A DNA stretch of 9,512 nucleotides from a bacterium (GTDB taxonomy: Bacteria; Blakebacterota; Blakebacteria; Blakebacterales; Blakebacteraceae), in contig JALGVQ010000110.1 of assembly GCA_025774615.1 (NCBI GenBank), positions 1-9,512 on the forward strand, in the 5' to 3' direction. Below, one piece after another: positions 5,065 to 5,874 of the stretch; positions within the stretch are counted from its first letter, which is position 1; every line of letters starts with the position of its first letter. A program made the position numbers and the translations under genes. Under the pieces are notes generated by a model. It did no database searches and had not been told where the DNA came from. It saw nothing but the letters and a program-made list of their open reading frames with translations.

Positions 5065-5133
5065 TAGATGAGGTACTTTCTGCGGTGCCCGACCATTCGA
5101 CACAACTCTATTTCGCAAGGAGTCGAGAATACC

Positions 5134-5874
5134 ATGAGGCGAGTGCTCCCGTTCCATACCATTCCGTCGTTAGCCATTCTGCTTATACTGGCAGCCTGCG
5201 GGGACAGACCAGGATCATCCGCTGAGATCCCCGAGTCAGAGATCGAGGCATCGGTACCCGAATTGACAGAGATGCACGACCTGGTCTACCCCCTCTGGCA
5301 CACTGCCTTTCCAGAGAAGGATTATGAACTGATCCATGAACTGATTCACCAGTTCGATGAGGGGATGGCTGCACTCGAAACGATCGAGCTGCCGGGTATC
5401 CTGCGTGAGAAGCAGGCCGCATGGGACGAGGGCTGGGCTCTGATGAAGGAATCATTCACCGCCCTGGTGACCGCTGCTCATGATGGGGATGAAGCGGGGA
5501 TGCTCGAGCACACCGAAGCCTTCCATATGAACTACGAGAAGCTGGTCAGAGTCATCCGTCCCCTGGTCGCCGAGCTCGACGCATTCCACCAGGAGATGTA
5601 CAAGCTCTACCACTACTACATGCCCGCCTATGATGTTGAGAAGATCGGCGAGACCGTGACCGCCATGGAAGAGAAGCTGGTGGCGCTCGGAGAGGCGGAA
5701 CTCTCAAGTCGTCTCACCGACAAACAGGCTGACTTCGATGCGGCAGTCGTGGAACTGGCAGCGCAGGTGGCGGCCCTGGCCGAGCAGTTGAACGATCCCT
5801 CGAAAAGAGCAGTCACCGCGGCGATCGAAATGGTCCACACCGCATACGCGAATGTCGAGAAGATCTTCGATTAG
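5134..5874 (+). CDS. Lipoprotein with a tandem-duplicated helical unit bearing conserved histidines; unknown function
   Basis: The product from ATG at 5134 is 246 residues. MRR, a hydrophobic stretch and LAAC (Cys22) form a lipoprotein signal. AAGGAG at 5117-5122 sits 11 nt upstream, and the in-frame ATG at 5068 would put 22 residues ahead of the signal, so 5134 is preferred. Residues 45-141 and 149-245 align without gaps at an offset of 104, with about 25 identities by eye. Shared positions include H48/H152 and H56/H160 (H-x7-H), Y52/Y156, P60/P164, D63/D167, E65/E169, the KQA triplet 93-95/197-199, D98/D202, E128/E232, H131/H235 and Y134/Y238. Both halves look all-helical and rich in Ala, Glu and Leu, suggesting two helical bundles. 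I do not recognise a named family. The paired His and acidic residues could bind metal or haem, but no cysteine haem motif is present. It is the last gene before a terminator-like hairpin. Confidence 0.82.
   Translation: MRRVLPFHTIPSLAILLILAACGDRPGSSAEIPESEIEASVPELTEMHDLVYPLWHTAFPEKDYELIHELIHQFDEGMAALETIELPGILREKQAAWDEGWALMKESFTALVTAAHDGDEAGMLEHTEAFHMNYEKLVRVIRPLVAELDAFHQEMYKLYHYYMPAYDVEKIGETVTAMEEKLVALGEAELSSRLTDKQADFDAAVVELAAQVAALAEQLNDPSKRAVTAAIEMVHTAYANVEKIFD

Follow-up and report, generated by a model that had tools for sequence, protein, structure and literature searches.

Cytochrome b562 (PF07361) is an up-down four-helix bundle that carries its haem ligands in helices 1 and 4, on the same side of the groove between them, with an axial Met in helix 1 and an H-x2-Y motif at the end of the last helix. 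Cytochrome c' (PF01322) is also an up-down four-helix bundle; its last helix carries a CxxCH motif for haem attachment, and the His of this helix is followed, after two residues, by an aromatic residue. PsbQ and CyanoQ, photosystem II subunits of phototrophs, are four-helix bundles as well; CyanoQ is a lipoprotein in cyanobacteria, and these subunits can bind Zn2+ at sites that are not conserved and whose relevance is unknown (PMC4180030). In addition, the periplasmic copper protein CopM is a Met-rich protein with two DUF305 domains (PF03713), containing 8 His and 23 Met residues (PMC4335983).

The protein described here is encoded in a 9,512-nucleotide stretch of DNA (the window, meaning the whole stretch that was analysed) and resembles each of these systems in part. 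We regard it as possible, at somewhat less than an even chance for the whole of this reading, that the protein represents a class of metal or haem carriers of the envelope that has not been described before. Its b562-like bundle would hold a groove site composed of a near-invariant His pair and a third His at i+8, and tandem duplication would have affected the class two or more times, in Gemmatimonadota as well as in the small phylum to which the window belongs. With it, the envelope proteins of a phylum that has been little studied gain an unnamed family open to testing. Should the site bind copper or haem, its ligand arrangement would be new for a very common scaffold.

Gene and internal repeat

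The open reading frame at 5134–5874 (+) is intact, running from the ATG at 5134 to the stop at 5874, and its 246 codons encode a 246-residue lipoprotein (P0001). A Shine-Dalgarno-like AAGGAG (5117–5122, +), read directly from the DNA, lies 11 nt ahead of the ATG. The signal peptide (5134–5199, +) ends in the lipobox LAAC, whose Cys22 (codon 5197–5199) is followed by Gly at +2 and is the sole Cys of the protein. The Cys-GDRPGS stretch that begins here is common to the closest homologue (L002, see below). On these sequence features the protein is probably lipid-anchored and located in the envelope, where the lipobox together with the signal peptides of other members also places the family. A scan for promoters and terminators around the gene found none, with scores below or at chance. 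A gene for a beta-propeller-like lipoprotein with a weak DUF5128 match (P0002, 3805–5064, +) is separated by 69 bp from the tandem lipoprotein gene, which follows it on the same strand, and the two genes may be co-transcribed.

The protein contains two repeats, formed by residues 37–140 (5242–5553, +) and 141–244 (5554–5865, +). In the best ungapped self-alignment, at an offset of 104, the two stretches share 29 of 104 residues and score 107 with BLOSUM62, against 31 at the runner-up offset and a maximum of 58 among 5,000 shuffles of one half. A preliminary description of the locus had proposed a gap-free match at this constant offset, which the comparison confirms; its unit of about 97 residues is slightly short of the 104 that match. 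Three His residues stand in exact register between the repeats (all codons on the + strand): His48 (5275–5277) with His152 (5587–5589), His56 (5299–5301) with His160 (5611–5613), and His131 (5524–5526) with His235 (5836–5838). The last pair belongs to the H-x2-Y motifs His131–Tyr134 and His235–Tyr238, so that both H-x7-H and H-x2-Y occur in both copies as originally noted. The KQA triplet (93–95 and 197–199) is also in register; it is kept between the two halves but is not conserved beyond the tandem type. Comparison of the halves at the DNA level gave no repeat signal at the 104-residue spacing, and the duplication is therefore old.

Predicted fold

AlphaFold2 predicts two four-helix bundles for the whole protein, with a mean pLDDT of 81 from an alignment of two sequences. 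The N-half alone, modelled from residue 38, forms a confident bundle (pLDDT 92.8, pTM 0.86). The predicted helices span residues 42–61, 64–82 (interrupted), 88–117 and 120–141 in the N-half, and 146–165, 168–187, 192–218 and 224–245 in the C-half, which places His48 and His56 in helix 1 and His131 in helix 4 of repeat 1.

In fold comparison (VIA-align), both halves group with designed bundles and with cytochrome b562, cytochrome c' and PsbQ/CyanoQ. The C-half superposes on b562 (4er9) with Z 13.2 and rmsd 2.0 over 97 aligned residues, and on cytochrome c' (6a3k) with Z 12.4 and rmsd 2.0 over 101, while the N-half reaches Z 13.5 with PsbQ-like chains and 10.8–11.2 with cytochrome c'. These matches indicate likeness and not kinship, because helical bundles reach such Z values without being related; the absence of a family from the fold lists was not counted as evidence. 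For cytochrome c' the shared fold alone shows neither membership nor function, and the sequence likeness is weak and below threshold (Pfam E 0.045, score 15.2 against a curated cut-off of 26.5). P0001 has no Pfam match to b562 at E<=1, and hhalign against b562 (E 0.05–0.1) aligns only short, non-equivalent stretches. Likewise, PsbQ and CyanoQ give no sequence match, either in Pfam (E<=1) or in the PDB sequence search.

A family with near-invariant histidines

Searches of Pfam, NCBIfam and PDB sequences for a named family returned sub-threshold matches only, and the earlier statement that no named family has this layout agrees with Pfam and NCBIfam, neither of which holds a matching family. Matches to the hemophore Rv0203 (E 0.011), CopI (0.021) and CopA (0.11) came from single members and are not significant among 24 members. 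When genome contigs were searched for full-length homologues with the window protein alone as query, a single clear one was found, in a Gemmatimonadota MAG (L002); it is 50% identical and keeps the two-repeat layout and all six His residues. The genome of the window carries one copy of the tandem lipoprotein, and none was detected in three other, incomplete genomes of the window's phylum.

A profile built from the window protein and this homologue retrieved single-domain proteins in three Gemmatimonadota genomes. With single-domain members added to the profile, the family appears in 53 of 395 Gemmatimonadota genomes, mostly in the single-domain form, and has no match among the plasmids and viral contigs searched. 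Direct profile-profile comparison (hhalign) of the four tandem-type halves with 24 single-domain proteins gives P 4e-8 over 101 columns and aligns them His on His, which supports homology of the two types. The window domain thus belongs to the family by profile homology together with three His residues in register in an H-x7-H ... H-x2-[FY] bundle. A lipoprotein of genome G001 (L004) initially appeared as a paralogue (E 0.0035) but was not recovered by the wider profile; it was retained in the eight-row seed profile A2 but excluded from the conservation counts. The family is real and undescribed, is absent from the libraries searched, and probably has a site for a metal or haem.

In the first alignment of 33 domains, among which the lowest pairwise core identity is 13%, the only invariant columns are those of His48, His56 and His131 (33/33 each). 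Weaker profile matches were added to give a wider set of 54 domains, because the profile that found the first sequences contained these His residues. In this set the His131 position is His in all 54 domains and the His48 position in 53, with one Gln, which bears out the expectation that homologues keep these residues. The His56 position is His in 48 domains and Met in three, with Gln, Tyr and Ser also found, and position 134 is Phe in 47 domains and Tyr in seven, extending the motif to H-x2-[F/Y]. Most of the domains that have lost His56 are second copies in another tandem type (G069, G226 and G305) or belong to close relatives. Based on these counts (53/54 and 54/54 against 48/54), His48 and His131 form a core pair and His56 is secondary.

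The conservation bears directly on a distinctly unlikely alternative, in which the His residues would bind zinc or another divalent ion whose role is structural or incidental, on the model of PsbQ and CyanoQ. PsbQ-like bundles are among the closest folds and include the Zn-bound CyanoQ of Synechocystis (3ls1), itself a lipoprotein. The zinc sites of PsbQ and CyanoQ, however, are not conserved, whereas the His residues of the present family are nearly invariant.

In the maximum-likelihood tree, the window protein and its full-length homologue contribute four tandem-type halves, which form one group (100/100) apart from all others, and the tandem proteins of G069, G226 and G305 nest within the single-domain clade; the tree is built on 104 columns only, with a long branch between the two groups, so that the usual long-branch warning applies. 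Since the two tandem types sit in separate groups, tandem duplication occurred at least twice. Two independent duplications suggest that domain number matters, and they offer a natural comparison of one-site and two-site versions. At three loci with the second, independent tandem version (L041, L042 and L043), copy 2 has Met or Ser in place of the His56 equivalent, and a GH109 gene is a neighbour in all three. L041 and L043 both contain genes for an outer-membrane beta-barrel and for a Gly/Tyr/Ser-rich secreted protein, and L042 and L043 both contain an NTP transferase gene.

Geometry of the helix-1/helix-4 groove

The directions of the His side chains were derived from family-averaged hydrophobic moments with His excluded (bootstrap spread about 28 and 17 degrees). 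Relative to the core direction, His48 points to +59, His131 to +113 and His56 to +139 degrees, with His48 and His131 on one side; the sign is unchanged with other hydrophobicity scales. For E. coli b562 the identical calculation gives +72 degrees for the haem ligand Met7 and +77 for His102. These angles indicate that the His residues line the groove between helix 1 and helix 4, on the side of the b562 haem ligands, and are not scattered. A scatter of the histidines over the surface, which had been suggested as a refutation, is thus not what these directions show.

His48 and His56 are at i and i+8 of a single unbroken helix (residues 11 and 19 in the model, where the helix spans 5–24), with C-beta atoms about 12.9 Å apart. 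A single metal site formed by all three His residues was rejected, as none of 500 sampled idealised straight-helix bundles lets His48 and His56 reach one ion; a mononuclear three-His site is therefore unlikely. The pairs 48+131 and 56+131 are each feasible in 10–25% of the sampled idealised bundles, and the level of His131 falls between those of His48 and His56, so that it could pair with either. This modelled geometry would be better suited to a site of two His residues with a third as accessory, or to a larger cofactor, for example haem. The proposed spatial cluster of three His residues accordingly stands as regards their common side in the groove and fails as regards a common point.

The groove geometry invites a second alternative, which we consider doubtful, that each half binds a non-covalent haem b with b562-like bis-His ligation, His48 and His131 being axial and His56 lying near a propionate. 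The protein would then be a two-haem electron carrier of the envelope or a haem buffer. This agrees with the predicted fold, which matches b562 (4er9) and cytochrome c', with the placement of the His residues on the side of Met7 and His102, with the H-x2-Y that ends the last helix of b562, and with the finding that His131 and His48 are the two best-conserved His residues, ahead of His56. Haem is large enough to contact His56 too, and the M7H variant of b562, in which both ligands are His, gains strongly in stability from cobalt porphyrin (PMC8082397), which counts in favour of haem. The levels of the ligands speak against it: compared with the haem ligands of b562 and c', His48/His152 would lie about one turn and His131/His235 about two turns deeper, as judged from alignment endpoints only. 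Moreover, the sequence profiles do not align to b562, and the His/Met-rich tails of relatives (see below) are not a haem feature. The lack of CxxCH also weighs against haem, and covalent haem is excluded for the window protein, as it has no such motif and its sole Cys is that of the lipobox. The protein further differs from b562 in offering His48 in place of the axial Met and in being lipidated and tandem.

A proposed copper site

Both copies, and dozens of very distantly related proteins, share the same three His residues, which hence probably hold a metal ion or haem. With homologues keeping them, no named family, and their position on one side of the bundle, a bound ligand is the best reading; the initial suggestion of a ligand rather than a merely structural role is retained, apart from the clustering at one point. 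We tentatively favour, with a confidence somewhat short of even, a transition-metal site, most likely for copper, in a protein acting as an envelope buffer or chaperone. On this view an undescribed four-helix-bundle domain occurs twice in a lipid-anchored envelope protein, and each copy would bind a single transition-metal ion, copper being the likeliest, where its first and last helices form a groove. His48 and His131 (His152 and His235) would form the core pair, and His56 (His160), which is Met in some relatives, would serve as an accessory or transient ligand. The simplest role would be that of a copper buffer or chaperone at the periplasmic face of the outer membrane, which takes up, holds and passes on the metal, and the duplication would double its capacity or allow the metal to pass between sites.

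What points to copper is a His/Met-rich tail of the MDHSKMDHSKMDHG kind, present just before the domain in many single-domain relatives. The replacement of His56 by Met, a soft copper ligand, in three domains also counts for copper. The absence of such a tail from the window protein counts against it, as do the several natural fold neighbours that carry haem, and the inability of the i/i+8 His pair to share one ion counts against a simple three-His copper site. CopM resembles the protein in being located in the envelope and in containing a small His-bearing domain twice, and the His/Met-rich stretches of the single-domain relatives add to the likeness. It differs in the HH motif of DUF305, since the window protein has no HH dipeptide, no Pfam match to this family and no adjacent copper genes.

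In the neighbourhoods of about ten relatives, a sample that is not exhaustive, no copper genes were found beside family members; this counts against copper, and the sampled gene context gives no confirmation of a copper operon. The neighbours include M14 and S9 peptidases, GH109 and other glycoside hydrolases, amidohydrolases and TonB receptors. In four related genomes (L048, L050, L052 and L053), an M14 zinc carboxypeptidase gene adjoins the single-domain gene on the opposite strand.

The TonB receptors and peptidases among the neighbours are in line with an unlikely third alternative, in which the His residues bind neither metal nor haem and instead hydrogen-bond a small organic ligand or a partner protein, or hold the contact between helix 1 and helix 4. 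The loss of His56 in some copies while the domain persists fits this alternative. Three near-invariant His residues amid divergence, with Met as the commonest replacement of His56, are nevertheless more typical of metal or haem ligation.

Other genes

In the genome of the full-length homologue, a gene (L006, 1018–1740, -) encodes a 240-residue secreted protein with two distant CxxCH motifs (CGDCH and CADCH), possibly a duplicated c-type cytochrome. In the window, P0006 (8552–9511, -) contains a 3-keto-disaccharide hydrolase domain (PF06439); ahead of this domain lies a helical stretch that seems to repeat internally, with the units AAVEAGEISEEQAHQRLTGMRERL and AAIEAGRITEDQARERMAGLRERM. P0004 (1543–2637, +) is a PLP-dependent enzyme. 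In NCBIfam it matches best with GntC, of guanitoxin biosynthesis, and with the capreomycidine synthase VioD. Its scores are far under the cut-offs (186 against 415 bits for GntC and 181 against 391 for VioD), and it is probably another member of the aminotransferase fold.
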